Shown here in pieces: positions 24,494 to 53,933 of a DNA stretch of 64,000 nucleotides. The stretch comes from Macrotrachela quadricornifera (taxonomy: Eukaryota; Rotifera; Eurotatoria; Philodinida; Philodinidae), in assembly GCA_022393335.1 (NCBI GenBank), contig JAJEKB010000592.1, forward strand, positions 250,019-314,018, written 5' to 3'. Positions within the stretch are counted from its first letter, which is position 1. Every line of letters starts with the position of its first letter. The notes under the pieces are model-generated. The model was not told the DNA's origin and did not search any database. It saw only the letters and a list, made by a program, of their open reading frames with translations. Both the position numbers and the translations under genes were made by a program.

Positions 24494-25435
24494 TTAATTA
24501 ACAATAATGGTTTGAGGAGCGACAGCATGATGACGAAAACAGATTAGTTTCTTAATAATGTGACGTACTTCAGGCATAGCAATTAAATTCATATAAAATG
24601 CACTTGTATAACTCAAATTATTAATATATCGAATAACTTGTGCAATCATGTTTTCTATTGCTCGTTGGTTCGCATCTTTGCTGATTGTAAATGTGACACC
24701 AAAATAGATACTAAATATCAATAATGGAATATTGGTGAAAAGTAAAAAACTTATTTGAATTAGTAACATTCGATTAAAATGACGATCAAGACGATTATCC
24801 ACAACTGATCTTTGTCGAAGTGAACTTATATTTTTTATTGTTCGATGGCCAAAATAAAGTAATATCACAACAGGTAGTATACCAAATAGAACAGGATTTG
24901 AAAAGTAGTTTATATAGAGAGCAAATTGTGAGGAAATGTTTCCGCATGAATTTCCATTACGTCTAACGAAAATAAGATGTGGAATATTGACTAATGACCA
25001 AATAATGAACACACTGATAATGGCTCGAATGGCAAATGAACGTGAACTCCACTTGCGTTGACGTTGTTCTCTTGATGTGCACATACATCGATCAAAGGCT
25101 GCAAAACATAAATAACTGATAGAACACATTGAGCTTACTGATATGATATAACCACGAAAAGGACAGTAGACATCATTGTTTGTATATGTTGCAATCGAGT
25201 AGAAGAAAAGAATACGTGTTAATAGTGCATTAATCAAAACACATATATCAGAAAATGATTGAGCAAATAGATAATGTGAACAAGAACTTCTACGAAGCGA
25301 ACGCCGACTGAGTGCATACATGTTAAATAGAGCTCCAGTTGATCCCACAATCAAGAAGATGATACCGCTATACAGTTGGAACTGTTCATTAATCAACATT
25401 AACACTTGGGGTGATGACATGACTTTTGTATTCAC
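24494..25435 (-). CDS. GPCR-like 7TM receptor, rhodopsin family, divergent from neighbours
   Basis: Single-exon receptor of 313 residues (or 308 from the second Met). Seven hydrophobic helices are visible. TM1 has GSTGALFNMYAL. TM3 begins after DVYCPFRGY and ends CFAAFDRCMCTS, keeping Asp-Arg of the DRY box with Cys in place of Tyr. ECL2 has a Cys (NSCGN). TM7 reads LSYTSAFYMNLIAMPEVRHI, with no NPxxY. Its second intracellular loop is Arg-rich (REQRQRKWSSRS). It is more distant from the other two receptors than they are from each other. Ligand unknown. Confidence 0.8.
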   Translation of the reverse strand: MNTKVMSSPQVLMLINEQFQLYSGIIFLIVGSTGALFNMYALSRRSLRRSSCSHYLFAQSFSDICVLINALLTRILFFYSIATYTNNDVYCPFRGYIISVSSMCSISYLCFAAFDRCMCTSREQRQRKWSSRSFAIRAIISVFIIWSLVNIPHLIFVRRNGNSCGNISSQFALYINYFSNPVLFGILPVVILLYFGHRTIKNISSLRQRSVVDNRLDRHFNRMLLIQISFLLFTNIPLLIFSIYFGVTFTISKDANQRAIENMIAQVIRYINNLSYTSAFYMNLIAMPEVRHIIKKLICFRHHAVAPQTIIVN

Positions 25436-27053
25436 TCCTAAGTGATACCTGTTTTATATGTCAAATATTCCTTCTGTTTGGTTAGTTATTGTAAAGCTTA
25501 CGGTGTCGTGTTCTATAATTCTTTTTTGTGCTTCGTTTTATATGTTGCTGAAAAAACGTATATAATGCGATGTTAACTATGTGTTGACGATATTGTACGT
25601 CAAGCACAACATGAAAGAAAAGTCAATGAATTCAATAGATGCGCATGACAAGTTACATCTAAAACCAGCTCTCTAAGTATTAACACTAATTATTATAGAT
25701 ATAAAAAGCCATGAGAATAAAACGTTTGTTTTTGATCTACTTTCAGTTTTACAGTGTCATGACCCTTGTGTCTATAATGAAAGTGTACAACGTCGTTAAA
25801 ATAATTGTGTAATTAAAAGAATCCTAAAATTTCTATCATTATCTGGATGCGGTTGTTGATAAACCATGTTTAATCATACATTTATTCTTTGTGAATGGTA
25901 CATTGCATTCATAAAAAATTGAGAATAGTATTTATATTGTAAAAAGAAAAATTACATCATTTGATAGAAATGTCGGATACATATCAGAATTAATAACAAA
26001 AATGGAAAAATGAAAGTGTTAATATTATTAAACCACAATTCAGTGATTACATAATGTTCATCCAATTTTAATTAGCAGATAAAATGTTTATTCTTTTAGC
26101 GGAAATGGCAAAAAACCAGTCTTCTATCAAAATAAAAGAAAATTGACATAGATAAATAGGATGATATCTTATTGAAAAAATTAATTTTCTCTAGAAGAAT
26201 ATGTGATTGTCCATACAAAAAAATATTCATACAATTAAAAAAATGACTTAGTTAGCAATTTTTATCGTTCTTTTTTTATTTATTTGTTTTATTACTATAG
26301 TTACAGAAAGATTAGTAGAATTTGGAACAATAATTAATCGGTCTCTAACTAAATCTTTTTACATATGTTCATAATCTATACCTACATAATTTCTCTTTTA
26401 AAAAGTTGTAGTGCTTTGATTTACATGCTTGATGGGATACACGATTTACTTTCCATTGATTACATAAAAATAATTTTTCAATTAGTCGTTTTCTGGATTG
26501 AAAGTTTACTTTCCTTTGATTAGTTGGGTGAAAACAATAAGTGAATGAAAGTCATTGCGACAATATATATATATATTATTAGAACAAAATTTCAATAAAA
26601 TTTTCTGAATGGAATAAACATTTATTACAATGTTTAAATTATGTTCGAGCAAGCTATCTTTATCTATTCAAGAATCTCTTAATTGACTATTAACATAATA
26701 CATATGGACCATTAAGAAATTTCCCCCGCATATGTATAGCCATTATCTTCAGTCGCAAATTTATTGAAATTTTTTTCTAATAATATATTGATTGTTGCAA
26801 TAACTTCCATTCAACTAATGTATAGAAAGTAAATCCTCAATAGGAAAAATTATATTTTTCTATAGAAAAAAAACAATTAAGACTGAAAGTAATCAACGAA
26901 AAATAAACCCGTGGAGAATAAATCGAGTAATCACACAACAAGAATATAGTAGTACAGATGAACTATTCAATCACCAACTAGAAATATTTTACTGTGCATT
27001 GAAGATTCAGTATTTAAAATCTAATAATTTAATGTAAATGTTTGGTTGACGAG

Positions 27054-33182: not shown

Positions 33183-35496
33183 TGGAAAAAAAATTTCTGA
33201 AGTTAATGGTTTTTGTTAAAACGCAAAAAAAAAATAGATAATATTGTATTCAGTTATATGAAAATATTTATGTTCTTCTTTTACGTTGAACAGTGTATAT
33301 GAACTTCACTGTACTGTCTCAATTTATTTCAAAATTTCATTTGTGTATGATAGAATAAAATATATTTCTATGAAAAATAAATAAATACAGTTGTTTTATT
33401 CATAAAATTGAAATCTAGTTTTATGTAAGATAATCTTAAAGAAAAAAAAAACAAAAAGGAAGAATAATGTACTCTTCAATTTAATCTCATATCATAATAA
33501 CTGTGACAATGGTTCTTTTAGATTCATTTCCTTTTTCCGTAGGACACCGCTATTTTTCAATCTAGATATAAAAGATTTTCAACACGATTTATTACTATTG
33601 AATATTTTATTAAACATCTTTTTTACAACAAAATAGACTCATTGATTAATTGATTTTAGGTTTTTTTTTTTTTCTATTGAAGTTAACTTCGTATTTTTTT
33701 TATATATTTAGTTAATGATGCAAGAGAAAAATAAGAAACATTTCCGATAAAAATTGCTTGTTATATTTAAAAAGAATTCATCGATCAAGTTTCTTTTTTT
33801 TTCTTTCTTTCTTTCTTTCTTTTTGATTGACATATATTAAATATAAAAGAAAAATCTTTTATTAATTTATTTGAATTTTTATATATATATAATCAATAAT
33901 TTTATTTTGCAAATATTCATTTTATATACTTATTTAAAAAACAAAATTTCTATACATATTTATTCAGTTGAATTCCTGAAATATTGTGTTTTAAAACTAA
34001 TGATATTTTTTAATATTTGTTTGAAGTTAATGAAAAAAATTGTTTGAAGTTAATATGCATAATTCCTAATTATTTTAACAATGTATTCTTTAAATTGTAT
34101 TGTTCTTATTAATATTCATCGTTTGTGTTTTTTTTTTTTTATCTAAGAAAAAAAAATCATTAAACTATCGAGGTATTTATTATTTGATAGGCTATTTATT
34201 ATCGTTAGATAATTATAAAATGCATTATAAATATGAGCTTTTAGTTAGAATAGACATGATGACAGAAATGGAAAAATGATTGAAATGAAAGGGTAAGAAT
34301 TCAATAACGAGCATCAAGTCATGAAAGAATATTTCATATATAAAAAAAAAAAAAGAAAAACCGGAACTAACTTATTAAACGGATGAACATTACTAATTTA
34401 TTTCAATCTATTCAATACAAGATTATATACTATTATTCAATGACTTAATTTTATAGAATTAAAATAAAATATTCTCTCGTTTTTCTTCTTAGGTTAATCA
34501 AAAAACAAATAAAAGAAAAAAGAATGTACCTTACTCATAAGCACCCCTCGTGTAAGTCAATGTTTCCATAGACTGTTTGCATAACTTTATTTGCAACGAT
34601 ATCATATTCACTAAACACAGATAATATTATTAACTCTGAGTTTAAAACTCATCTTGGTAAATATTATTATCTATAGTGTTCAGCATATAAATATGATAGA
34701 TCTTATATAAAAGATCGAATAGTTGCTATTCATGGGTTCGGGGACTTTCCCTCGAGTATCAGATAAATTTGAAAACAAATTTAAACTGATATAATGAGTG
34801 ATCATATATGACACTCGTATGTAACTCGAACAGCAAACGTGTAAGATACATGAAGATTTATAAATATCAATTATCTATTTATATTGATATATCTATTACA
34901 GAAAAGAAAAACGGTGAATATATAAATTATTAATATTGATAAATAGTGACATCTAGAATAAATTTTTTTTCTTCTCTAGAATAAAAAATGTTAAATATTA
35001 ATAATTAAATAAAATTACTAGGGAATAAATAAGATTTAATTTACTTTTTTTTGCCTTTTTAATCGATATCGAAAATGTCATCTGGATATTTTCTATATTG
35101 TTATAAACCTGAATCTGTCTATTAGAAAGAATGATTTTTCTTTAGGTTTTTGTATTTTTTTTTTAATATTTGATGTTATAAGAACAGATGTCATCATTTC
35201 ATTTATCTTTAAGCGAATAGTACCAAAAAAATAAAGATGAACAACAGGATCTACGTTTATTCTTCTTTAAAGAAGAGAAAAAAAAGAGAAGAAAAGAAGA
35301 CGAAGAAGAAGAAGAAGAAGAGCATAAAGCGGAAATTGAGAACTTTCTCTTTCTACTGTCAGGTTAATACGATGTTTTAATCAGAATTCAAGTAGAAAAT
35401 TTTGATTTAGATTTTTTTTTTTCATTTTTATTTTTAGTTATATAAATATTTTATTTTTAAATAAAATTTTATCAGAACATTAAAAACAAAAAAAGG
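33183..35496. other. intergenic region upstream of the RGS gene
   Basis: About 2.3 kb, A/T-rich, with a purine-rich GAA/AGA tract at about 35262-35330 shortly before the first alternative RGS exon. A short ATG frame at 34732 (MGSGTFPR before a GT) was seen but is too small to trust. Confidence 0.4.
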
Positions 35497-35553
35497 ATGT
35501 GTGCATGTTATGTTTTACAAGCATCATCATCAATTCGAAGTACTTATCGTTTT
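35497..35553 (+). CDS. RGS gene alternative first exon 1
   Basis: 57 nt, 19 codons ([19 protein letters not shown]), ending in phase 0 at the strong donor GTAAGT. Two Cys close to the start could be lipid-modified, but this is a guess. It could splice to 37931 or directly to 47769. It is the furthest of the seven starts from the RGS core. Confidence 0.55.
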
Positions 35554-36273
35554 GTAAGTATCTTGTTTTATTATTAATTTAATTTATTATCAATTTTATT
35601 GAAACAATCTACTTGATTTATAAATAAACGAAAGATATTTGTTAATAATATATTTAATTAATTACTTTTTTTTTTTTTTGTTTTTCGTAATATTTATTAA
35701 AGAAATTCTAATATCTAAATTGATACAAATCATATATATTATTACAAAAAAAGAAAATATTTGTGTGTAGGTTTGTTTTTTTCTTTTTTAATTAACAATA
35801 AGTAAGAATTTTTATTGGATATTTAAGATAGATATTATGTTAATCTAATGAAAAAAAAAATGATCAAAAACAAAAAGAAGATTACTATAGAGAGAAAAAT
35901 ACGAAATGTCTTTCTTTTTAAATATTAGTTTTTTTTTCATTATTAAAAATAATCTACTAAATAATGTGTAGAACATTGATATATACCAGACGAATGACAC
36001 GCATTTGTGCGTGTATATCTGTGTTTGAATAATTTGTTGAATTCCTCGACTGATAAACATGAAAGCGAATACGCTACACATACACGTACACATATAGACA
36101 AAGAAAAGCGATTATGATGATTCCATTCCCAACGTCTCACGTTCCCATTAAGGGACTTTTTCTATTGGTGTCAGTGCTCTCATGTGTAGTTGTTTCGTAG
36201 AAAAAATCGAGTTTTCCCTTCTCTATGCTTGCTGTTGTGTAGTCGGCATAATTATTTTTCTTGACTTCATTTA

Positions 36274-36308
<35 letters not shown>

Positions 36309-39300
36309 GTTCTCATCTATCTCTTTGCTTGCCTCTTTTTTTATGTAGAAATTGTGTCAGTAAAGATGGTGACTATAGTATAAGAAAAAACTGCCTGTCG
36401 ACATTATCGAATGCAATGATGCGAGAGCGTATAGTGCTTATGTTCGTGACATAGCTCACGCATGCATTTGACACGAGCTCAGGTGTGCTTGTTGTTTGTT
36501 GTTATTTTTATGAAAATGTATCGACAAGAAGCATCATTCTTTTGGTGAAAACAACTAATCAACTTCTTAGATACTTAAATCTACAAACAATTATATTTAA
36601 AGTGATTATTGAAACATGAATAAAAGTCCTTCATCATCACCACAACCATTGACAAATACAAAACGTTCTATTCATGGAAAAAAACTACAATATCAAGAAA
36701 GAATTGTTGAACAACCAGCATTATCTCTTCCAGCAACAACAACAACAACAACATTAATGTCGAGTTGTTTAACTACTGAGAATATGCGTAAAACATCCTC
36801 AGTAATTGTTTCTTCCAATTTCGGAGATATACAGATAAAACAGGTAGAAACAAAAAAGAAATGACAAATTGATTTATTTCTTTGTTCTTTTAAGATCTAA
36901 ATATCAAATTTCTTTGCTTTTCCTTCTTTTTTTCTTTCTTTCTTTTTTCTTTCTATCTTTATATAGTATAAATAGTGTTTGAAAGATCACTCTTATTTTC
37001 TAGAACAGAGAAAAAAAAAAAAAGAAAAGAAAAGTAATTATTTCAAGTGAACTCCTTGAACAATATGCTCATATTATTCTATATTAACTAAAATTTTTTT
37101 TCTCTCTAGTTGACATAAGAGATTTTCTTATTCTTTATGTTAAAAAGAAGAAAAAGTATCCCAACTTATTAACAAATATTAATGACAGTTCGTTTGACAA
37201 CTCAATCCTTGTTTGTGAAAGAAAAAGAAAAAAGATATTTGGTAAGCACTAAAAAAAACTAATGATACCTAAGAAATATTTTTATTTGTCTACAAGGAGA
37301 TATTTCCACTATTAGAAATTTCAAGTTTATTATATGTAATCCTTTCATTCTTGTCGAAAGGTTGTTTCAACTTATAAGTATGTGCTACTAATAAATATAT
37401 TAGTATTAAGAGAGAGAGAGAGAGAAAAAGAAGACAGAACGATAGAAACAAATTGATTTGAGTCTAACCGATGGTACTATAGAGTAATGCCAATCAACCA
37501 AATGTCATCTTGGGAATTTGCTTTCGTTGTTCGATGATAACAAAAGGGTGGCAAGCGAACTAAGAAGGAGAGAAAGCAAGTTTCCGGTGGTTTTGTTGCT
37601 GTTCGTTGTATAGTGAACAATGAGACGAAGAAAGAGAAAACAATGAGACGAATGAGAAATAGGATAACAACATGAGAACTACTAATAAGGTTGTGTATTT
37701 TGGTAATCTCTATTCGTCTGAATTAGGATTCTTCTTTAAAATATTGAATGAACTAATATAAAATATTTTATTTCTTTATATTCTAATAGTTAAATAAGAA
37801 TACATATAATAAAAAATAGTGACATCTAGCAATATTTTTTTTCCCTAATTGAATAAATGTTATTTTAAAATATCATGAAGACTAAAAATATAAAAATAAA
37901 ATTCATTATTATTATTATTATTTATTTTAGGAAATGGAGTTAAAAGCTGTTGGAAAATTGGGTATGGTAAAACGAAAACAATTTCTACAAAAACGAGATA
38001 TTAGTCGATCACATGAGGTAAAAAAACATTGTTTTCCAATAATTTTAGATATTTATATATATATTTATATATAAATAGAAATAAGAAAGTTGATATTTAA
38101 ATTTATGTATCCATTACTCTTTTACATTTGTAAAAATTTTATTTCTTCATTGATTCACAACATTAAACAAATATTTAAACAATGAAAAAATAAAAATAAA
38201 TCTTAATTTAATTTAATTTAATACATGTTAAAATTTATAAATAAATAAACAGAAAGAAAGAAAAAAAATGATGAAGTAATCATGTGTAAATTAATAGAAA
38301 GTTTTTTTTTAAAGGTGAGTAAAACAAAACAGACATGTGAAAATCATAATGTGTTGAAAACAATTTTCTTCTTGAATGCATCCGAGAATAAATAAAAAAG
38401 AAATAAATGCTTTCCTTTTTATTATAATTGCTTTATCAGTTATTCAATAGAAGGTCGTTACAATAATATTTAATTAAGTTGCCTACCGTTCGTAAGAGTA
38501 CTTCCTGATGTTAATAAATGCTAAGGCTTTTGCTGATTAAACGTATGCAAAAACAAAGAAAAAATTTGTAAATAACGCATTTTTTACTATGACATTAAGA
38601 GAAATTTATGATAATCATCGATTTTATATAGATTTTTAACGCTTATTTTAATAAAATTAGTTTTTTTTGTTATGTTTTGTTATTCTATTTAAAGTATTTT
38701 CTATTGTATGAACATGAATAGAATTCTATTATTATATGTCTATATGTCAATAAAAGAAAAAACAATTCTGATCAACTATATAGACTAAACAGATAGATAG
38801 AATTTTCTAATCGATCTTGCGTATCATTTTACATCTATATTGTTATAAGTACATCATATATAAAAGAAGAAGAATTTTGTTATGTTGCCTTTTCTTACAT
38901 ATCGTTTTATTTTCTATATAGAATATAAGTAAAGAGCAATCGATTTATGGAAGAAAATAAGAAAATGATGGTCTTTGACGATCATCACCTTGAAATAATT
39001 ATGCTTCGAGGAAAGACGATAAAATTAATCATATTTAGAAGATATAAAAAGAAATGAAAGATTTCCCATTTGTGTAGATTTATATTTTAAAGAAAGATAA
39101 GATGCGTGCTATTGATTAGACTGTGATTGAAAAAACAATCGAATCACTTGTCTATGCTTCGAAGAACACACTAATAGCAGATGGTTCGTGATATTACTTC
39201 ATGATAAAAAAAAATGCAAAAACTCATCGAACTATTAAAAACTATTAGTATAGTCATCATCATCATCATCATCATCATTGTTGTTGTTGTTGTCGTCGTT

Positions 39301-42300
39301 ATTCGGACTAAATTTGATCTATATTTTTCTATTTTTTTTGTCAAAGCTTATTCTTAAGTAACGAACGGAAAAAATGCGGAGATCTCGTTAATTAAACCAA
39401 CAACGAGCTAATTCGACTTGACATTCAATTGAGGATCATTTTTATGTTTCATCTTTCTTTCTATTTCTTTTTCTTTTTTTTTTTCTCGGAAAACTATTAC
39501 CGAAAAAAAAGGGGGGGAAGAGATCGAGATAATGACAATGATGAGAACGATAACGACGGACGGTCGTTCGTTGTTGAGCAAAAAGAGAGAAATATATCCG
39601 TGTCGTTGTCGTCGTTTCTTTTTGTATGTAAAACATCGGTCGAGAATGCAAGCGATGCTCGACATGAGAAAAACGAGAAAGAGAAGGCGTACAGGATGGA
39701 GAGCGAGAAGGAGGGAGAGAAGGAAACAACCCTTCCCATCATCATCATCAATGACTATTGTATTCATTTCAATAACGACGCGCCAGGCGCAGCAAGCCTT
39801 CATTTCTCGCAATTCTTCTCTCTTCTCTCTTCTCTGGTCTCTTTCCTTTTAGGAAAGCACGCACCATTATGTTTTTCCTTCAAAGCAACGATACTAAATA
39901 AAGTTTTTTTCTTCTTCTCTCTTGTCCTGTTATATACAAGAATTATCTCTTCTCTGTATACATTTGTCAATGTATCTGTAAGATGATGGTGGGTGGTCGA
40001 CAAAAACCGATGATAATAATGAAAGTAAATACAATAAGAAAATCCAATCATTTTCAATTTTGACTTTTCATTTATTTATTTATTTATTCATTTATTCATT
40101 ACATACATATTTCCATTATTTTTCCTTTGGTCTTTTTTGTATTTAATCTCTATTATTGATCATTATGTCATCATTTCATCTTGATACTTCATTTAATTCA
40201 TTAACAATCACTTCAACATCATCAGTATCAACAGCAACAACAACAACAATTACTAATCGTCGATTATTAGATGTTGATCCTCATCGTTTATCTATAGGCA
40301 ATGCAACAAATATGAATGTTTCTAGTGTTAGTATTCATCAACGCCGTACATCTATTGTCAATCATCATCAACGTCGAAATTCTCAGTTACGTAAAACAAG
40401 TTTTACTACTTCAACATTGGTATGTGTGACAAAATATAATTAGTCTGTCTGTTTGCTATTGACATATAGAAAATGAGATTGATAGAGAAAGATTAGATAT
40501 TTTTGCTGTCTAAGATATATATGCGATTGTATGCTTTCTTTTTCAACCAGATGTATAGTGATAATGATATCATATAGAAAAAGATTTTTATTTTCTAATA
40601 GATAAATATATATATATATCTTGTCGATAAAAGAAAAATCTAGAAGAAAATATTTTAATATTAAATGAAGTTTGTCTTGATGTCAATTGAATGGTTGAAC
40701 AAATTTATATTTGTATTTTCTTAAATACATACATCAACAACACTTCATTATTATATTCCTTCATTTTTCTATATTCACATCATATAGAATCGTTTCCTTC
40801 AAGCGATGACAGATGTTGAATGTGTTGAAATCAACTCAACTAAGAATCTGTCTTCAACGAGGCAAAACACTCGGAAATTATGCTAAATAATGAATAACAG
40901 TATAGAAAAGAAAATGAAAGATAGACCAAATAAAGCCATCAGTAACAGCTAACCAGTATTGATGATAGATCGTTTATTCCGCTTATACACTATCTATAAA
41001 GGACATTCAAGTAAAAATCGCATTTTTTTTTGTGACTCCTTCTGGATACCTGGTATGAACAGGTTTTTTTTCCGAAAAATCCTGTTTTGTAAATATCTGT
41101 TGTACAATCATCTCAGACTAAACTACTTCAATATCAGAATGAGTAAGCCATGGAATGGCAAATATCAAATTGGTACAAATTCTAAAGTCAGCATGTTAAA
41201 ATAGTTTAAAATTTTAATTCTGCAAAATTTTTTACATTTTCAAATTTCAACGAAATCCATAGGTCCACAGTAGGTTCTGTTAATATAATCCTTATTAATG
41301 ATTATTTTGAACTTCAGCAGTCAAAATTCGGCAGAGATCAGAAACCAAAGATTTACTGAAAACTGGTAACAACTTGAGATTTGCCGCGGTCTCTAGCTAT
41401 TGACAAAAATGAGAGAATTGGTAGTTGCAACTGTCAGTAAATGTTATTCGACGTTTTTTCTTGACGAATTCATCTACAATCATTTCGATGTCCTACTGTT
41501 GAGCGATTTTCTTATGAATACTGATTATGGCCAAACTATTAAGTCGTTCGTCACCTTTTCGATTTCTTAAGTAACTCTCAATTAATTTCAAAACTGAGAA
41601 TGATCTTTCAGTGCTGGCCACCGACACCGGAATCAGCGCATACAGTTCAAGTAGAATGTAGATATTTGGATAGAACATTTTCAATGATTGAATCATTTTC
41701 ATGATGTCATTGATTGTACTTGGTCGCTCTGATATTGGCAATAAGAAGAACAACTACGTTCAAAGTTTGAAATTATCAGACTTGATAACAAAAAAAAAAA
41801 ATTCAGGGGAGATTAATCCCCCCCCCTCCCCCGGCTACGTCCCTGTTCCTTCTCTTTATCTGAACATTCTTTATGGATAGTCTCGTAATCGCTTTAAGAA
41901 AGAGAAATGATCGCTATCATATAAAATGTCTACAGAACTAAATTATAAAAGAAAATGACAACGATAAACAATTGACTTTCTAATAAACCTCTGCAATTTA
42001 TCTATTTGAAAAAGATATTTATTATAATTTCTATTATATTAACCATATGTTAAATTACTCATTTAATTTCCATAAAACAAGTGTAGATTTTTTGGTTATA
42101 TCTACGCAATAAATATAATATATATAATAAGAGAAAAAGAAATACTTCGTGATAAAATGATGATTATCTTTTTTTTTTTATGTTTAAACGTATGCATATT
42201 CATATCTTACGGGACGTTTTTGTTTTTGATTTATGAATATAAATATTTAAATATGTCATGTTTATCGAATTGTTGTTATCATGAAAATCCTTGATTATTT

Positions 42301-45300
42301 ATTATGAAATAGAAATAAAAAAAGAAGAAGCAAAACGTTACATTTAATCTATGAATTACTTTTATTTAAAAATATTTCAATTAATTCTAATTAAATTAAA
42401 ATAAAAATAATTTGTCAACTTATTATCATTAATTTAAATCAATAAATATATTTTTATAATAGAGAAATAAAAATTCTTATTTAAAGAAAGGAAAAAATAA
42501 GAGCAAAGATTATTAGAGATAAAAGAATTCTCTAAGGATATATAAACATGATTCATTATCTTATAAATTGATCCTTTTTCTTTCTTATTTAGGTGTAAAA
42601 GACAATGAAAGTTTTACAGACTAAACGTGATTTTTATTCTCAATATTTTATATATATGAAAGAAACAAAGAAAATATGACCTTTTTTTAATAAGAGGAAA
42701 AATACTTTCTCTATTATTAAACTAAAAGTCAGCAAATGTGACACCATAATTATCAATAGAAAAATAATCCAAAAATATTCTTTTTTGTTCTGAATGTTGT
42801 TAATATACTGAATCTTGGGTAGAAGAAAAAAAACTATTCATCAATAATCAATTTTTTTATATAATTAGTTAATAGATAAGAAAAAAAAAATACTAAATTT
42901 ATGAAATAATTAAGAATACTAAATGTCAAAAGATTTAATAATAATTTTCAATTAATAAGTAAATATAAAAAATAAGAAATTTTGATTTTATTTTAAAAAT
43001 AATTCGTTATAATTCTATCACTATTGCCTAGCGGCAATTTTTTATATCTTTCTTCATTTTACAGGCAAGCCAAAAAAAAAAAGGCAAACACAATTTTTGT
43101 CTCTTATTTCATCCGAAAGAAATAATACTAGCATGGTCGTCGTTCTACCCCATCGGACTATTCGATATATGACGTGTTTGTGAATGCGAGGTTTGTTCAT
43201 CATTCTGTCTATAATTCTATCTGAGCGAACGCGCGCGAGAATCGAATATTGTTTAATAATGAGAAGAGACTTTAGCAGCGTATAGATATATATATTTTAC
43301 ACGGCATGCGTCAGCGCGCAACTTCATGTCTAAAGAAGAAAAAAAAAAGTCTGTCTATCTTCGTTGTTGTCGCGATGAAATGTGATGATTTGACTATCTG
43401 TATCTGTTGTCCGGCCTTCTCTCTTCTTTTCTAATACGATTAGAATTAATAAGACTCTCGCTCACTCCCATCACTCTTTTCCGCACGACGTCTACAACTA
43501 TCTTAGCCGATGTTTCTCGTTTGTCGTCGTTCGACATCGGCAATAGACAAAATGTTATTATAAAATATGCGCACACATACATATATATGCTTTGACATTC
43601 TATGAACATTGATTTTAAAAAAAAAATAAAAGAAAATCACAAATAGAAATCTATGTTTATATTATTATTTATCAATTGTCAATTGCCATTTTAATATTAA
43701 CGAATATGTCCATATCAACAATCAAAACATTGGGTGAATTTATGACCGATTGTGCTCGAACAACACATCGCCTTTCTTGTTATACACCATTACCAAGTCA
43801 TGCTGCTCAGGTTTGAACAAAAATTAAAGAAAAATTTTATTATTTAGTAATTTAAAATTAATATCGATTTTTTTATACTAAAAAAATATATTTTCATTTT
43901 TTTTGTTTTATTTCGAAAGCAAGATAGGAAAAAAAAAGAAAATTAATTCTATCAATCGTAATATATTCTTATATTTCCAATAAGTACAAGAAAAAAAAAG
44001 TCTTATTTTTGCATAAAAATTTTCATAGATGAAGAAAAACATCAAATATACAAAAGATAATAATTTGTTATTTAGTCTCTTATGATCGAATGTCATTAAT
44101 AGACAAAAGAAAGAAGAAAATAGTCAAAATATGATTTTTACATGTGAAAGTCTCATTAGAAAAAATTTTTCTACTGATATTTCTTACTAATAGAATATTT
44201 TGCTTGATTAGTTCTCTACGTTTTCTTTTTCTTTATCATAAACGATGAATGATGAGAATCATTGTCTTTTTCTTCTTTTTTTTTCTTTCGTTAGAACATT
44301 GTTTTCACACTTGAATAATAACAAATGAGAGAAGAAAAACTAAGAGACAGTTCGTGATCCTATTAGATAGTCGTGACCAAATTTTCCTCCTATTTATATG
44401 ATCTAGTAAACAAAATATATCTATATATATGTAATAGAAATGCAATACTATCATAGTTCTTCTTCTCCTACTAAATCCGATAATATTCATCCGATTGTAA
44501 CCATGACAAATATGAATACTGATTATAAAAAAAAACTTTCAAATCTTAAAAAGAACAATAAATTTTATAAATCACAATTTATCCGATTTCAACGAGCACA
44601 GGTATTAATATTCCTTATTTATTTATTTTTTATATTCTTTTATTGACAATTATGTCTAGCTTTATATTATTTTTACAAACTTTTTAAGTTCAAAAAAAAA
44701 AATATATAATCTATATGATAAAGAATAAATGAAGCAAGAAAAAAGTATTATTTCCGGTTCTTTTCAATTCTTTTAAATAGGTCAAATTTTATTATTTAGT
44801 ATGTATATTCGAAGGATAATAGTTTAATAATTAACAATTATTAACTATTAGATCAATTTTAATTATTTTTCCTGTTTTAAAAGTTTCTGTAATTTATATG
44901 TAATATAAATAATAAGATTTTAATTTTTCTTCTATAGTTATTTTTTTCTTATGGATTTGTGTGCGTGCACACTCAGGATCATATTATTTGAAATCGATCA
45001 CTTCCGGCAGAATGCACACGATGTATTATTTTTATTGTTTTGTTCATATCTATCTATATATATATATATAAATAGAGAGAGAGAGAAAGATAGACTAAGT
45101 CTTTCTTTTTCTTTCTAATATATAATGTTATACTACTTTAAAAAAAGATCTATTTTACTTATTATTATTTTTTTTTTCTTTATAAGTAAATAATAAATAT
45201 ATGATTATAGTTTGAAATAGTCAATCTATTCTTTTTAGTTAAGAATTGAATAAGAAGAAATTCTATTGGTATTCATTGATATATGTAGTAGTATCTAATC

Positions 45301-48300
45301 GATGTGATCAATAGAGAAAATGAATGAAGCATTGTGTTATTTTTGCTGCTTTCTTTTTTCTTCTCAGTCGCTATTGTCAATCCATGAGACTCAATTATTG
45401 ATTCCATGCGCGCTACCATGCGTCCGTCTTGGCCTTGAATCCATTTGTATGGACTAGTGAAGAGACTTGCGCGCACTGACGCGATGGAAAATATTTGTAG
45501 CGTACGAATAACAGAAGGCGACGACGACGAAGAAGAAAGAAGAAGAAGAAGAAGACCTCGTCATCTTAGCGTCGCGTGCCACTGAGCTTTTAAGGATTAT
45601 AAGAGTAAGGAACTCTGTTAGTCAACAACACATAGTAGCGAATCGAAGACGAAGTTACTTTCTTTCTTCCTCTCTCTCTTTTTTGCTTTACATTCACACG
45701 CACATATTCACAACTAACAATCAATCACTATTACTACGACAACAACAACAATAAAAACAACGACGACGATAACAAAAACCATTGAAAAAATCTTTTTTTC
45801 TATACATTTATCTCATGTTCAGAGGAGAATCATGCGCAGTAATAGTACTAGTGCGACTGGTGATGGTCATCATTCTCAGCATCATCATCACCATCATCGC
45901 CGTTTATTTATTCAAAATTTTCTTACGGATTTTCGTCGTCAGTCGAGTGTCAATGATTATAAATTTCCAAATACATTGGTATGTACACAAAAGTTATCAA
46001 ACAAGTATATATACTTCTCAAGAGATTTAGATGAAAATTAAATTTAGTTGACGTATTATTTTACTATGAATAAACTTCGATTTTGTCATTCTTTAGAGAT
46101 TAAAATCTCCAATGATATAAGAATATATATATATATGCCCTAATATAGAAAATTCTTTTTTTTTTGGTTCGTATTATATCTATAAAAATCTATCTTAAAA
46201 TCCCTCTAGAGATGTATTCATTGTTTTCAATAGTATATCTAACAGCTTAAGAAAGAATGTTATAGACAAATCCCAAGATAGCTTAAAAGTATTTTTAAGA
46301 TAATCGTCGAGTAATGTTACTTAAAACGTTTCTTTTTTTTTTCTTTTCTATTAATCTACCTTAAAGAAGAAATATTTAACATATTGATTTCGATATTTCT
46401 TCTCCTCTTTTATATTCATTACGGTGTCAGCTGTCTTTTCCTCTTGTATTTTTGTATTGTTCTGCAAAAACGAGACTGAATAAATGAAAGAATAGGCATG
46501 CAATGCAATGATGATCATAGTAATGATTCTGGCATTCGACCTCAAAAGTGTTTCTTTCTTCCTTTGATTCTTTTTTTACACGCAATGTATAATACTTGTC
46601 GTTCTTTCTTTTTTTTTTTTTATTCTTCTTCTCCTACTAAATATTATATCATATCAATACTAAGCATATAAACGAATGTATGAAAAGTGCAGAATATAGT
46701 GTCGATCTCTTGAGAATTTCTTGTTGTTGAAATCTCGAGGTTATAATTCTAAGGCTAACAATAATAGATAAGCATTGTCTATATCAAAAGATCAGAAGAG
46801 CAATAATGATGATGGAATGAATATTATGATATGATGGTATATCTAGAATAATTTGACATTGATCACTCGTCACACTAATAATATAAATAAAACATTGAAA
46901 ATAGAATCTTAATTTTAATAAAAACAAGTCACATCTATTTTTAATCAAAATAAGAAAAAAAAAGAAAAAGAAGAAATAATGACACTTATTCCGGTTGTAT
47001 TAAAGTTGTAATTCAGTTTATTTTAAGATTTGTTCTGCTCCTCCTTTTGACGGATATAGGCGGTTTGTTTTCGTTCAACTTTCAAAAATGTCAAAATAAG
47101 AGAAATAAAATATAGAGAAATACATTTATCTATTTCGATTTTTATACGTGTCAAAAACACAAAAAAAAAAAAGATGACATATTGAGACAGTCGTTATTCT
47201 CTCATTTTTTTCTCTTTTACATTGCTGCTCTATGCACACTTCTATGACAGGAAAAACACATCAACTAGTGCTTAACAAGAATAATATTTATCACTGCCGC
47301 TAGCAACATTCAGAGAGAAAGAGAAAGAGAAACGAAGAAGAAGAAGAAGAAGAAGAAGCCATCCACCAAAGAACGAGAAAAAGAACAGTAAAACGATCGA
47401 GAAAAAGAGAGAAGAAAAAAGATTTGATTTATGCAAAGCTCATTTTGTTACTAAAACTAAAACAAAAACCAAAGACAGGAAAAAAGACTACACACGTTCT
47501 TTCCTATCTTGTCGTGTTCAATTTCCCACACTCCTTTTTCCTTCACTCTTCCCTCTCGATATCTATCTTTTCCTACATACAACATTCAAGTCTACCGACC
47601 ATAATAAGTCATGATGTCGTCTGAGATAACATCTCATCGTCCTATACAAAAATTTATTAAGGCTAAGGTATAAAGATCAATAGAATAATACTTGATCTTA
47701 TCTGATCAATTGATTTCTTTTTTTAATATATATATATATATATTTTTTTTTCTATTATATTTATTTAGTCACTTGCAGTTACTGATGAAGAAACTGGAGA
47801 TTTATCAGCAACACGTTTATCTATATCAAATTCTTTAACTAGTGTTCATAAACAATGTGAACAAGATGATACTGAAGCAACAAATAAACTTTTAGAAATT
47901 GGTCGTGTTGCTTCATGGGCTGTTGGTTTTGAAAAATTGCTCAATGATGATATTGGTTTACAGATATTTAATGAATTTTTAAAAAAAGAATTTAGTCAAG
48001 AAAATATACAATTTTGGATTGCATGCGAAAAATTTAAAAAATTATCAGATCCAGAAGAGGTTAGAAAATAATCTTAACTAAAAATATATATTTAGAATAT
48101 TTTTTTTATTTTTCTAAAGATTCGTCATAAAGCCAATTTAATTTGGTCAACTTATTTACATGATACAGATGATGGTTCATGTCCAATAAATATCGATAGT
48201 CGAACACGACAAGAATGTCAACAATCCTTGTTAAATAAACCCAATGCCCATGTATTTGAAAAGGCTCAAGCTCAAATATTTCAATTAATGAAATATGATT

Positions 48301-51300
48301 CATATAGTAGATTTCTTAAATCAAATATGTATAAAGATTGTATTATGAATGAAATGGAAGGTAAAACTATACCATATATAAAACAACAACAACAAATGTC
48401 ATCAAGTACTGACGATAGATCAAAAACACTTGATTCACTTGTATGAAATTAAAAATAAAAAAAAAAAAGAAAAGAAAAGAAAAATAAATTATTTTTAATT
48501 CATTAAAAAATTTTCTTTTTTATTTAGACAAAATTGAAAGAAGATGAAAAAAAAGATAAAAAACGAAGTCCACTTTTACCTTGGACAAAAGGTAAAAAAA
48601 AACCCATAAAATAAAATAAAATTTTACATAATTAAATATATTTTTTATTATTCATTATTTTAGCATTTATTAAATGGAAACGTCTATCAGGTTTGTTGAT
48701 ATCTATAAATCTTCTTCATTGTTGTATATACACGTATATATGTTTCTTGATTAATTTATTTTTTATTCATTCTCAATTTATCTAGCTACACCAGAGACAA
48801 GCAAGTTTCTTTTTTTTTTATTCTTTTCTTTTTTTTGTTGATGTTCTGCGTCTATACACATATTTAAAAAAAAAAACCTAGTTTGTCTAATTAATAATTT
48901 TAAAAATATATATATATTTTCTTTTTTGTTCTCCATCTAATCGTGAAAATTCGAAAAAATATCTCGAATCACGACTAGATAGAGTAAAATGATAGTAATC
49001 ATCATCAGTTTGTGCTGTTGCTACTAATAATACTATCGTTATGCTATTTGCTATTACTAACCGTTTTCGTATGTTGATAGCTTCGTGTCAGTTGTTTGAT
49101 GCTCTGCATGTGAATGAGATGTGAACAAAGATTAATGATTAATCGATTTGACCTATTCTACTGTTCAAACACATGCATATATATACATATACACTTGTAA
49201 ACTAAACAAATTAAATGAGCATGTCACCAATTAATATTACAAAATGCGTGAAATATTATCAAAGCACTATATATAAACATATTTTTGCACATTATATATA
49301 TATTTATATAATACGTTTATTTTTTTTTATAGTAATATTAATTTTCATTATTGAACTCTATAATACAAAATAAGACAAAAGTGAAAATTAATAATTATCG
49401 TAGAACCTAATTCATCGTTTTCTTTTTTTTTCTTTTAATTAACCTATATTATACACATATATATATGTATATTTATATATATATTTACACTTATGTTACA
49501 TATATAATTATCACACGATTCTAATCGTATTAAAGAATCGATACTAGATCCTCTCTTCGTTGCAGTGTCAGCCTCGGCGAGTAACACGCTCAACGAAGAT
49601 TCCAGTGATGAATAGTGTACCGCGCTCGCATACTTTCAGTGCCTTTTCTACTTCTATTCAGGTAGATAAAATACGCATTTAAACCTTCACATACCTTTAT
49701 TCTATATATATTTATTCAAAAAAAAAAAAAAAAAAATTTCCTCATCACATTTAATATATTTGTTTTTGATTAATTAAAATTTATAATAATTTAAATTTTT
49801 CTTTTGTTTTTTTTTCTAATATTTAGTTAAACGTGATACACCCTCATCTTTATCTAATTTACATCATCAAACTGCTAATGCTAGTACAAATACTCCAATA
49901 CATGAAAATCTATGTTTATCACCATTTCTAACATCATCAATGACAAGTAAATCAGCTTCAACTGAATTAGGAGGAATATCAATAACAGCAAGAATTGGTA
50001 GTGCATCATCATCATCATCTTCACTAACAGCAACAGTAAATAGTGGAAATTTATCAAATAAAATAAATAAACTTCCATCACATATAAATCAACAAGATTC
50101 TTCAACGTTTAATTTTATTTTACGTACTGAAACAAATCAAGATTCACCTTCATTTACTGAAAAGAAATGTATAAATGTTAGTTAAATTTATTTTTAATTT
50201 TAAATATTTTATATATATATATATATTCTATAGGATAATTCTTCAATACCATCAATAGATTTATCACGTTTTTGTCGTTTTATATTTCCTGATCAAACAA
50301 CAGCTTTACTTTTAACACATAATTGTACACATCAAACTATACAACAAGCAATAAATCGTTTATTTGCTAAACGTGGAATAACTTGGTATAGAACTGAATT
50401 ATATTCAACATCTTCAAATGATCAGGTAAGAAGAAAAAAAAATAAACAAATATTTATATTTTATTTATCCAAATTATTATATTGAGCAAGTGCTAATAAT
50501 GTTACTGAATATGTATAAGGCTGAGCAGACCAAAAAGGAAATTCTCCACCTGGTACATTATATCCTTGAAATGTTGTTGGTGTTGATACATTAAAATGTT
50601 TTTCATATATCATACGTTGATATACTGTTTCGTTAATATATCCACTAACACCAACAATTGTATCAACAAGAGATTGATTATTAATATCAAAATGATTTGG
50701 ATCCAAAACAGTTCCATTTAAATATTGATAAATATTTGCTGGATACCAAAATGGTAATTGATTAAAACCTTTAACAGAACCAGAAAAAAAACAATTATAA
50801 GGTTGATATTTAAATGCATTTTCCATAAGCCATGATATGGATTTATTAATCATAATTTTAATTGTATCAAGTTGTTTATCATTATTAATCCATTTTAATT
50901 TTCTTGTAGTTTTATCTAAATATGTAAATGATGATATAAGTATATTAACAGTTTGTGCTGTTGAAAATATTCTATCTTCACCAGTTGGTTCTATTTTTCC
51001 AAATATATTTGTATCATTTATACCAAGAAAATCATCATATGATGATTTATCTGAACGAACATTTAATTGAAAATATTTAACAACATCATTACGATATGCA
51101 TCTGATAGAAGTGTATAAACTTGATTAAATATATTTGGTATTGTTTGATTTTGTTGACGTGCTAATTCAAGAAGAAATAATGTACGTGAACCATACCAAA
51201 GAAAATTATAATGTGATGGATAATATACTTGTGCAAGATCTGGACGATTTTTCATTGAATTTTTTATTGACCATGATATTAATGATCCAGTTGATAAATA

Positions 51301-53933
51301 TAAGGTCTAAAGATATATACATCTATTAATCAATGTTTAAATCTATATGTAGAAATGTAGATATAATAGATAGTTCTTTGATGAGAAGGTCAAAAAATAG
51401 ACATGTCATGCTAGACATAAATGCGTGTTTAAAAATAAAAAGATATTTATTTTTTTCTACTTATTGTTATTCTGATGATTAATATATATAAAGTGAAAAT
51501 TATTATTTTCTTATTTCTCTATACATGCATCATTTTAACGTATATCTTGATTTTATCACGGGACATATTTTAATAATATTAAAGAATTTTCTAAACAAAA
51601 AATTTCTTTTCTTATCGTGTATCACATGAAAATTCTATAGAGATTTCAATGAAAGTTTGTTAGGTTTCTTTTTTTTTGATTATATAACACATCTATTTGT
51701 ACTTTGAATATAGATATTTTTTTGTTCTTTCTCTGACAGATGTTTATAGACTATTGACCTCCGTCATGAATTATTATCTCGATTAGATAAGATAAAAAAT
51801 AAATTCGTCATAATTTCATCTAAGAGAAAACAGGTTATTATGTAACCTTATAAGAAAAATAAAAATAAAAATCATATTTACTTGCATATCTTCATTAAAA
51901 TAATCTTTAAAATTAAGTAAATCATATATAATAGCACTTGTTATTCCATATAAAACATTAGCAGAAACAGTAACATCAATATTATTTAAATTAAATGGCA
52001 TTCTTATACCTTTATGTGCAAAATTTCTAACTTCAGTTATATTTTGTGCCCATGTTGTTGCTAAAATAGCATTTGGATTATCTCGTATAAAATCTCTTAA
52101 CCAAAAATATGTTCTTGGATCAATTGTATTTTGATCTAAATATGGACTTGATGGTCTATATGAATATCGTAATGTTAAATCAATTAATTTTTTCATATTA
52201 GAATTTGTTTGTACCCAACGTGTATAAATTGATGGATATATATTTTCTAATAATTTTAATTGTACACCTAAACCAATATTTAAATATGTATCATCAAAAT
52301 CTGGTGGAATTTGAAAAACATCTTTAAATGTTGAACTACTTTCACGTAATTTATCAATTAATTCTGCAATATTTTTTATTCCAAGAATTTTTAATATATC
52401 TTCAATAATAAGAAGATTTTTATCTAAATCAATAATTAAATAACGTAAATTATCTGGTGTTGATTCCCATGTATTTGTTGTTTGATTATATGTTTGTGAC
52501 CAAAATGTCATTAATGGTACAGATAATTCATTTTGATTATAATCATGAAATGTTTCAATTGCATCAATAGCTAATGATAAATGTTCTGTATCAATTACTT
52601 TTGGAGCTTGACCATACATATTTGCATCTAATAATACAGCTGTTATCCAACTATAGAAATAAAACATTTTATTTTTTTTTTTTTTGAAGATTCAAAATTA
52701 ATATAAACATACCCAGTAGCGAACATATTATTATCAAAAACATAAATGTATTTATTTGTACGTAAATCAGCTTGAAATGGATTACCAAAAAAATCTAAAC
52801 GAATTTCTGAACGATAAAGACCTAACTTTTTTTCCCAACGTGGAAATTCAAAATCAACTGGTTTTAATACCTAATAAGAACAAAAAAAAAACATAAATTA
52901 AAATAAAATTCTTATTTACTTGTTCATCACTAATTAATTTAATTAATTTTTTCATAACTTGTTCAATTGGTTGATCTGCATTTGTATAATAAATACAAAT
53001 ACAAAAAAATAAATAAAATATTTTATATAATAATATCATTTTAAATCCAAATATATGTGTATATGTGTTTTTTTATTATTTCGTTCTTACGTTTTTATAC
53101 TCACATATCTAATGTTATCTAATTGTTTATATAATTGACTCATCAAATTTTCTTTTTTTTTGTTTTATTATTTTAGCAACCAATTGATATTCAAGAACCA
53201 TTATCAACATTATCTGGAAAAGAAATCCATGTTGAAACACGTATACTTATACGTATTGATTTTCCAATGAAAATTTTATGTGTAAGATGTGATCCAAAAC
53301 GAACACTTTTACAAATTTTACAACCGATTGTTGATAAACTAAAATTATCTATTGGACAATTTGTTTTTTATGTTGTAGGGAATAAATAACATAAATAATT
53401 ATTCTTTTTGAAGAATTTTTTGTTTGTAGAATGATTCATTGATACCACTTAATTTAAATGATATAGTTGGAAATTATGATAATCAACGAATTTTTACATT
53501 AACTAAAACAGCTTCAGGTGTAGGTAAGTTAAGAAAATTTATTAAAATAAAAAAAGAAATATTATTAAATTATTTTAATGTTTTTCTTTTTTAAAAAAAA
53601 AAAAAGATATGTCAAGTAGGCAAAAATTAAAAGCAACAAATGATATATTTGAAATGATATCAGAAAATGATGAAGATATTAAATTTGATGAATGTGGAAT
53701 TTTAAAACCAGTTACATTATCAAAATCAACTATTGTGGTTGTATGTATATTAATTTTTATTTTAAATATTTTATTTTAATTTTATAGTCAAATGATGATT
53801 ATCCTCATTCACCAACACCTGAAACATCAGCAATATGCGATAGTGATCGTATGTTTTTTTTTTGGTAAAAATTAATTACTAATAAAATATATGTTTTTTT
53901 TTTATAGAAATTTATTGTGGTCCTAAACGGTGA
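35497..53933 (+). CDS. RGS14: RGS12/14-type (loco-like) regulator of G-protein signalling with alternative first exons
   Basis: Regulator that should accelerate GTP hydrolysis on Galpha(i/o) and bind Ras-like GTPases. Shared core exons: 47769-48059, 48120-48440, 48528-48591, 48664-48690, 49827-50176, 50234-50425, 53177-53374, 53430 onward and a last exon ending TGA at 53931-53933. The RGS domain (47900-48340) has [37 protein letters not shown] and [17 protein letters not shown]. After a basic linker and a Ser-rich stretch come RBD1 ([19 protein letters not shown]) and RBD2 ([18 protein letters not shown]), then a weak GoLoco. No PDZ or PTB domain is seen, so it is RGS14-like in layout. Seven ATG exons between 35497 and 47667 each fit the acceptor at 47768 in phase 0. 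Drosophila loco is also known for alternative 5' exons. Confidence 0.85.
36110..36480 (+). promoter_or_regulatory. candidate promoter of RGS first exon 2
   Basis: Locally higher G+C than its flanks, with a (TC)n run at about 36280-36305, ending about 130 bp before the ATG at 36616. No core promoter motif can be named; the call rests on composition and position. Confidence 0.3.
36616..36843 (+). CDS. RGS gene alternative first exon 2
   Basis: 228 nt, 76 codons, starting [20 protein letters not shown] and ending GDIQIKQ at a GTAGAA donor in phase 0. Rich in Ser/Thr/Pro with a Thr run. A (TC)n and GC-richer stretch lies upstream at about 36110-36480. The next phase-0 exon is at 37931. Confidence 0.6.
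37931..38017 (+). CDS. RGS gene internal 5' exon (optional)
   Basis: 87 nt bounded by TTTATTTTAG and GTAAAA, phase 0 on both sides: [20 protein letters not shown] then KRDISRSHE. It is basic. Its acceptor means it is probably an internal exon used by the isoforms starting at 35497 or 36616, not a first exon, though it contains an early ATG. Confidence 0.55.
39255..39300. repeat. compound microsatellite (CAT)n(TGT)n
   Basis: About eight CAT units run directly into TGT and TCG units. It lies in the 5' intronic part of the RGS gene. Confidence 0.85.
39490..39870 (+). promoter_or_regulatory. candidate promoter/5'UTR of RGS first exon 3
   Basis: CpG-rich block (gacggacggtcgttcg, gtcgttgtcgtcg, gacgcgccaggcgcagc) with purine-rich tracts. 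It is open in several frames on both strands, which is expected of GC-rich DNA in an AT genome, and none of these frames looks like a protein. Confidence 0.35.
40165..40419 (+). CDS. RGS gene alternative first exon 3
   Basis: 255 nt, 85 codons, from [20 protein letters not shown] to TSFTTSTL, ending in phase 0 at GTATGT. Ser/Thr-rich first half; second half has HQRRTSIV (R60-S63), HQRRNSQL (R70-S73) and RKTS, three basophilic-kinase (PKA-like) sites. A GC-rich block precedes it at about 39490-39870. Confidence 0.65.
41240..41845 (-). mobile_element. hAT-family transposon remnant
   Basis: A minus-strand frame (41753-41493) encodes the hAT C-terminal dimerisation region: [20 protein letters not shown], then [20 protein letters not shown]. 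An in-frame TAG after KKIAQQ is followed by [18 protein letters not shown], the usual hAT tail, so the stop looks premature. The plus strand ends cccccggctacgtccctg at 41845, the reverse of the common hAT terminus CAGGGACGTAGCC. Only about 90 bp separates that end from the dimerisation region, so most of the transposase is deleted. The other end was not found. It lies in the RGS gene's 5' intronic region. Confidence 0.75.
43130..43560 (+). promoter_or_regulatory. candidate promoter of RGS first exon 4
   Basis: CpG-rich (gcgaacgcgcgcgagaatcg, gcatgcgtcagcgcgcaac), ending about 150 bp before the ATG at 43706, flanked by very AT-rich DNA. Confidence 0.35.
43706..43810 (+). CDS. RGS gene alternative first exon 4
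   Basis: 105 nt, 35 codons, [20 protein letters not shown] through PLPSHAAQ, ending in phase 0 at GTTTGA, the weakest donor of the set. A CpG-rich block lies upstream at about 43130-43560. Confidence 0.5.
44440..44601 (+). CDS. RGS gene alternative first exon 5
   Basis: 162 nt, 54 codons, [18 protein letters not shown] through [13 protein letters not shown], ending in phase 0 at GTATTA. The second half is strongly basic ([17 protein letters not shown]), which could favour membrane or nuclear targeting. Confidence 0.5.
45390..45700 (+). promoter_or_regulatory. candidate promoter of RGS first exon 6
   Basis: CpG-rich (ccatgcgcgctaccatgcg, cttgcgcgcactgacgcgatg, agcgtcgcgtgcc) with a GA-rich tract, ending about 130 bp before the ATG at 45832. 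Confidence 0.35.
45832..45978 (+). CDS. RGS gene alternative first exon 6
   Basis: 147 nt, 49 codons, [16 protein letters not shown], a run of His, [18 protein letters not shown] and KFPNTL, ending in phase 0 at GTATGT. It contains an RRQS PKA-like site (R35-S38). A CpG-rich, GA-rich block precedes it at about 45390-45700. Confidence 0.6.
47334..47359. repeat. (GAA)n microsatellite
   Basis: Eight or so GAA units upstream of RGS first exon 7. Similar GAA tracts occur at about 35293-35320 and 45528-45556, ahead of other RGS first exons. Confidence 0.85.
47611..47667 (+). CDS. RGS gene alternative first exon 7 (proximal)
   Basis: 57 nt, 19 codons, [19 protein letters not shown], ending in phase 0 at GTATAA, 101 bp before the common acceptor at 47767-47768. 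It is the nearest start and perhaps the default one. A (GAA)n tract is upstream at 47334-47359. Confidence 0.6.
49566..49661 (+). CDS. RGS gene alternative exon with in-frame stop (short isoform)
   Basis: A 96-nt exon bounded by TTGCAG and GTAGAT. Entered from exon 48664-48690 (phase 1), it reads [16 protein letters not shown] and stops at TAG 49613-49615, giving an RGS protein without RBDs or GoLoco. The main isoform skips it and joins 48690 to 49827. In another frame (phase 0) the whole exon is open. A tiny candidate exon at 48785-48803 may alter the entry phase. Confidence 0.5.
50461..53039 (-). CDS. nested secreted orphan protein, 630 residues
   Basis: Complete gene on the opposite strand inside one RGS intron (50426-53176). 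Four exons: 53039-52920, 52870-52713, 52650-51882 and 51306-50461; all joins keep frame. The protein starts with a clear signal peptide ([21 protein letters not shown]), has no later membrane helix and carries about nine N-glycosylation sequons (for example YNQT, QNIT, INDT, LNGT, INET, FNVS), so it is probably secreted or lysosomal. Notable stretches are [67 protein letters not shown] and [20 protein letters not shown]. The helical, aromatic-rich pattern might suit an (alpha/alpha) toroid as in some glycosidases, but no catalytic motif is recognised. Family unknown. Intron 3 is about 575 bp. Confidence 0.8.

Follow-up and report, generated by a model that had tools for sequence, protein, structure and literature searches.

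One RGS12/14/Loco-type core and probably about five alternative first exons in the bdelloid rotifer Macrotrachela quadricornifera

The accessible text of PMC2324087 describes Drosophila loco as a gene of nine exons whose alternative 5' exons give five transcripts with the last three exons in common. Frog and fish RGS12 proteins diverge upstream of a common [SA]A[AT]VSDGEL motif (P0051, P0053-P0057, P0059, P0061, P0069, P0074, P0093), and two bivalve RGS12-like proteins, P0035 and P0036, are identical from SLIALEHD on and different before it. A loose motif located such a junction in 48 of the 126 proteins whose RGS start was recognized, bdelloids included, and in none of the arthropod rows listed. 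Arrays of first exons that share one common acceptor and one phase are also familiar from the UGT1A and protocadherin clusters. Among the listed literature on bdelloid alternative splicing and RGS alternative first exons we found no title on the gene described here, which is not proof of absence.

We analyzed a 64,000-nucleotide stretch of M. quadricornifera DNA, hereafter the window, in which positions are counted from the first letter. It contains an RGS12/14/Loco-type gene with a single phase-0 core exon, starting at 47769, to which about five first exons are likely spliced, each with a predicted promoter of its own. As in loco, as far as the accessible text of PMC2324087 describes it, alternative 5' exons precede a common core; unlike loco, the bdelloid gene combines about five supported starts with alternative C-termini and a micro-exon. 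The locus resembles the short and PDZ isoforms of vertebrate RGS12 in that differing N-termini meet at one point, [SA]A[AT]VSDGEL aligning with the bdelloid SLAVTDEE, but in vertebrates one alternative is a long PDZ form, whereas the bdelloid PDZ-like RGS is a separate gene model and the locus itself carries short tails. The bivalve proteins share the change of sequence before a constant core and differ in that P0170, P0171, P0175 and P0038 keep a GoLoco arginine that the bdelloid proteins compared lack. Several first exons, one acceptor and one phase likewise recall UGT1A and the protocadherins, but the bdelloid tails are unrelated to each other and are not duplicates of one exon. The design is one already known in the RGS12/14/Loco family, with the bdelloid array as an enlarged version of it. 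What is new here is how many starts there are, that both ohnologues retain them, and that the C-terminus offers further choices.

A first-pass annotation had proposed seven interchangeable ATG exons and one internal exon, all in phase 0, ahead of one RGS core. A sequence check found all eight at the coordinates claimed on the + strand, each a multiple of three in length and each with a phase-0 GT donor. Exons B (36616..36843; 228 nt, 76 codons), D (40165..40419; 255 nt, 85 codons), E (43706..43810; 105 nt, 35 codons) and H (47611..47667; 57 nt, 19 codons) are open from their ATGs and are our alternative first exons, together with G (45832..45978; 147 nt, 49 codons), which is possibly also a cassette behind E. 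Exon C (37931..38017; 87 nt, 29 codons) opens behind an AG and is internal, spliced behind B. Two more frames open from an ATG are candidates, exon A (35497..35553; 57 nt, 19 residues), which is unsupported, and exon F (44440..44601; 162 nt, 54 codons), which is doubtful. The common acceptor AG at 47767-47768 opens a phase-0 frame that reads SLAVTDEE. Because phase 0 is shared by all the donors and by the acceptor they feed, each start would yield a complete RGS protein that differs in its N-terminal tail and keeps the same Gα-regulating core.

The agreement in phase had been put at odds of one in three for each exon, a calculation that is invalid as written because being in phase 0 was how the exons had been chosen. 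A fair count of frames against a null model still favors the array over chance. Between 33300 and 47768 the + strand has 10 ATG frames, each 57 nt or longer, that reach a phase-0 donor, and 7 of these measure 100 nt or more, compared with 1.1 ± 1.0 and 0.33 ± 0.53 in 200 first-order Markov sequences and with 1 and 0 on the - strand; the donor threshold is that of the weakest of the seven donors, under a matrix built on 10 donors, which makes the count partly circular and somewhat favorable to the exons. In phases 1 and 2 the same count gives 2 and 3 on the + strand and 3 and 2 on the - strand. The 10 comprise the seven ATG exons, a frame from the ATG at 37934 within exon C, and two frames of low complexity. 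These last two, at 35237-35362 and 39444-39623, are absent from the earlier list, and the second falls within the GC-rich stretch of exon D. The observation that the tails share no sequence also stands, as none of the 28 pairs of exon peptides falls below the 5% level set by shuffling.

We compared these exons with the starts of 26 bdelloid-type proteins picked for the core junction SLAVTDEE (P0001-P0024, P0121, P0122) from the best 120 of 146 and the best 120 of 179 matches. The set excludes PDZ-type paralogues (P0025-P0030, P0032), rows that are distant or not from bdelloids, and second-search fragments that are incomplete or read into introns (P0123-P0130, P0133 and others); one of these fragments, P0125, starts with MLPLFQ ahead of the junction. 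When the pre-junction peptide was set against each exon, 24 of the 26 proteins matched an exon of the window (E in 10, G in 9, D in 6, F in 2, B plus C in 1, H in 1, A in none), and tblastn of the relatives' peptides landed on the same exon limits. Exon D runs directly into the core junction in all six of its relatives. Exon E, at 26-34 identical residues of 35, does so in 4 of 10, the other six models reaching the core via G, F or two extra residues. G ends exactly at the junction in seven of its nine relatives and sits in frame behind E in three (P0006, P0014, P0022). Exon F is matched over 12-13 of 18 residues in two R. sordida models (P0016, P0024), in both of which it follows E in frame. 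Single proteins represent the remaining exons: P0008 (Rotaria sp. Silwood1) begins with a weak match to B (29 of 60 identical) and continues with C (26 of 29 identical), which ends at the junction, and P0013 (A. ricciae) carries a weak match to H (9 of 19 identical) that is equal in length and also ends at the junction. Exon A found no match in any of the 26.

The two proteins lacking an exon match are P0017 (A. ricciae), which starts MSEHCQQIFQY, perhaps another start or intron read-through, and P0019 (Didymodactylos), which has just M before the junction. Two further models show dipeptides immediately ahead of the junction, AK in P0015 behind E and TK in P0003 behind G. These resemble the last two codons of H (47662-47667), which read AK in the window and TK in A. 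ricciae P0013, and could possibly mean that the last 6 nt of that exon are used.

Two of the four proteins in which E joins the core directly, P0121 and P0122, lie on contigs that are 997 and 2484 bases long and continue into the core with no intron read-through. The window's E-to-core intron measures 3958 bases, more than either contig, so both are probably derived from spliced RNA. P0122 also bears out two predictions made from the window, the 15-nt micro-exon and the short C-terminal end. The other relatives' models most likely come from the study PMC7943196, whose accessible text describes BRAKER annotation with RNA-seq of the same species for A. ricciae, R. magnacalcarata, R. socialis and R. 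sordida, and with RNA-seq from a relative for A. steineri and the Silwood species. Most of the rows are thus BRAKER models with RNA-seq hints, some of them cross-species, and such models can chain exons.

Base composition upstream of the exons points in the same direction as the relatives. We took the highest GC of any 400-nt window within 800 nt upstream of each exon start, a measure whose null mean is 0.315. GC-rich stretches on the + strand, putative promoters or 5' untranslated regions, lie above B (36089..36488; GC 0.393, 13 CpG), D (39487..39886; GC 0.438, 26 CpG, observed/expected 1.37), E (43130..43529; GC 0.407, 30 CpG, observed/expected 1.81) and G (45344..45743; GC 0.420, 24 CpG, observed/expected 1.37), the last three being CpG-rich as well. 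The stretch above H is weakly GC-rich (47201..47600; GC 0.357, 9 CpG, observed/expected 0.74), the maximum above C is weak (0.350), and no GC-rich stretch was found within this range above A (0.258) or F (0.253). Averaged over all eight starts, upstream GC exceeds that of 97% of circular shifts (P = 0.026), a modest test. The two exons with the poorest upstream GC, A and F, are also those that relatives support least.

These results uphold interchangeable N-termini on one RGS core, the substance of the original proposal, and do not uphold the number seven. A is found in 0 of 26 relatives, F only as an internal piece of 18 residues behind E, and neither lies below a GC-rich stretch; G appears as both start and cassette, and B and H each hang on one weak match. 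That all seven exons work as first exons, A and F included, would accord with their open phase-0 frames and donors, and we consider it unlikely given the record of A and F. The number of alternative starts is probably about five (B, D, E, G, H), with C internal, F doubtful and A unsupported.

Whether the ATG exons are starts at all depends on how they could be spliced. A single upstream promoter with cassette splicing would make them internal optional exons, chained in frame, with ATGs that encode ordinary methionines, and the E-then-G order in three models, E-then-F in two and B-then-C in P0008 are what such splicing would yield. Between the nearest upstream in-frame stop and the ATG, however, no phase-0 AG occurs for B (stop at 36610), D, E, F or H, and B, D, E and H therefore cannot be in-frame internal coding exons. 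Relatives' proteins moreover begin directly with D and E, and GC-rich stretches lie above B, D, E and G, all of which makes this account quite improbable. Of the exon starts in the array, only that of C has an acceptor scoring within the range of the training set (7.4), by a small matrix of 11 acceptors trained mainly on TAG acceptors. On the same scale the phase-0 CAG of G at 45820-45822 scores 0.1, against 7.4-13.6 for the training acceptors; given the three models that place it behind E, G could be an internal coding exon as well. A has a phase-0 AG between in-frame stop and start, again with a low score.

Spliced-leader trans-splicing is known in bdelloids, and a leader joined to each exon would create several 5' ends that need not mean several promoters. 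We regard this as very unlikely to be the source of the array, as the 80 bases ahead of the ATG contain no AG in the case of D, and the best AG in that range scores, by the same small matrix, -0.9 for E and -2.9 for H; real acceptors, apart from one poly-A outlier, mostly score about 9-14. A leader could join further upstream, and leader addition and alternative promoters do not exclude each other. Finally, one to two open frames of this kind are expected by chance in AT-rich introns, so that A alone could be one, but homologous peptides with the same junction end occur in other species and in the ohnologue and contradict chance for C, D, E and G; as an account of the array, coincidence is scarcely credible. 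Our preferred reading remains a set of about five first exons that share one acceptor.

The core that these exons feed was assembled by eye and frame and reaches 585 residues in its long version. Its RGS domain is of the R12 type (Pfam RGS, 1.7e-34), with RGS12 and then RGS14 as the best solved relatives, and the closest relatives overall are Rotaria and Adineta proteins (best 120 of 146 matches); judged by sequence, the core is that of a bdelloid RGS12/14/Loco-type gene. All its exons are on the + strand. The common exon (47769..48059) holds the SLAVTDEE junction and the start of the RGS domain, and the second core exon (48120..48440; frame and Pfam) holds the remainder. Core exon 3 (48528..48591), placed by frame, is followed by a 27-nt exon 4 (48664..48690), also placed by frame and present in P0122 and P0009 as well. 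Next comes an optional micro-exon of 15 nt (48786..48800), assigned by frame and relatives, which has a GC donor instead of GT and encodes ATPET, residues that are found in P0122, P0009, P0018 and P0024 and absent from P0014.

From this point the gene would end in one of two ways. An alternative short C-terminal exon with a stop and no Ras-binding domain lies at 49566..49615, is open in frame and matches the end of P0122. The long form runs through seven exons to 53932. The first of these (49827..50176) rests on frame and on relatives by tblastn; the second (50234..50425) holds the start of a Ras-binding domain (4.6e-10), and the third (53177..53374; frame, Pfam, tblastn) the end of that domain and sequence beyond it. 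An exon at 53430..53523 (frame, tblastn) precedes one with a GoLoco-like segment (53607..53740; frame, alignment), and exons at 53788..53848 and, with the stop, at 53908..53932 complete the form by frame. Of the tandem Ras-binding domains that mark the R12 family after the RGS domain, Pfam calls one here and does not call a second.

Two hallmarks of the family behave differently here. Pfam calls no GoLoco in the assembled protein, and the segment aligned with it reads DEC, DEY or DET both in the window and in all seven bdelloid proteins examined, and so is missing the arginine of the D-Q-R triad. Of 15 non-bdelloid rows, 10 keep DQRG (Brachionus P0034 and nine further animal proteins) and 5 showed nothing, in a comparison that located bdelloid rows by a bdelloid-like pattern and the others by a DQRG-like one. 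By this motif the gene is a divergent R12 member, yet by descent it belongs there, and Gα-GDP binding may have been lost in bdelloids. In the assembled protein that starts with D, Pfam finds no PDZ or PTB N-terminus, and the PDZ parts of P0025-P0032 have no place in the window (shown for P0025, P0026, P0028, P0029 and P0032). A bdelloid paralogue model combines a weak PDZ, below the Pfam cut-off, with an RGS domain of its own, and the bdelloid RGS12 may be split into two neighboring genes. A PTB domain was also suspected in the PDZ-type paralogue, but Pfam does not show one. The PDZ-type rows P0026-P0030 and the clade II rows P0002, P0006 and P0008 have the same longest contig size in three species (69789, 900741, 473671), and P0025 fuses a PDZ-type model and a clade II row into one.

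A tree of 31 rows, with moderate clade supports and no deep split starred, separates two clades. Clade I (support 92/95) joins the window to Rotaria rows and to A. ricciae P0017, and clade II contains Rotaria, A. steineri and A. ricciae rows (93/85, or 87/85 with P0121); P0019, P0122 and Brachionus are left unplaced. Each clade includes both Adineta and Rotaria, which fits ohnologues. A comparison with the ohnologous copy had been asked for beforehand, and it finds array exons in both clades: relatives in both carry D, E and G; B, C and H are found in the window, a member of clade I, and each in one clade II protein; and F is restricted to clade I. The degenerate tetraploidy of bdelloids is reportedly older than the families, and the array probably predates it.

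From upstream base composition, and because B, D, E and H have no usable in-frame acceptor ahead of them, we propose that each start would have its own promoter and that the promoter used would determine the tail. The core would then end as a short RGS-only C-terminus or as the long Ras-binding-domain form, with the micro-exon optional, and the RGS product is predicted to switch off G-protein signals. In this animal the tails would mainly set localization and phospho-control. Exon E has a predicted amphipathic helix (moment 0.64, with 0 of 500 shuffles as high) and two cysteines, and all six E sequences are amphipathic, each at or under 0.001. R4 RGS proteins have membrane-binding N-terminal helices with palmitoylated cysteines, and the E tail is predicted to be a membrane-binding helix. 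We considered whether every tail might be an amphipathic helix, and only E bears this out; the others do not rise above their shuffles over 18 residues. Sites of the form [RK][RK]x[ST], which are of the protein-kinase-A type, number three in D, one in G and one in B, and these tails are predicted to be basic and serine-rich with kinase sites of that type.

If this holds, promoter choice gives one Gα regulator different addresses, and the address set was kept through genome duplication and the Adineta/Rotaria split. It would then be testable whether subfunctions in a degenerate tetraploid reside in alternative first exons and not in gene duplicates. RGS12-type genes from rotifers to vertebrates would swap N-termini at one splice junction. 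Tentatively, as a plausible idea that we do not quite favor, the phase-0 junction ahead of SLAVTDEE / SAAVSDGE would be an ancient bilaterian docking site for exchangeable N-termini in RGS12/14/Loco genes; bdelloids would have moved the PDZ to a separate neighboring gene, lost the GoLoco arginine and built at the freed junction an array of at least five short addressing tails with their own promoters, kept in both ohnologues since before the families split.

Other open frames lie within the gene and elsewhere in the window. A gene-like pair of long open frames with no Pfam match occupies 50461-53060 on the - strand, inside the intron between 50425 and 53177. Seven-transmembrane receptor frames (7tm_1) are found at 760-1671, 20344-21366 and 24494-25453, likewise on the - strand, two of them just below the Pfam cut-off.
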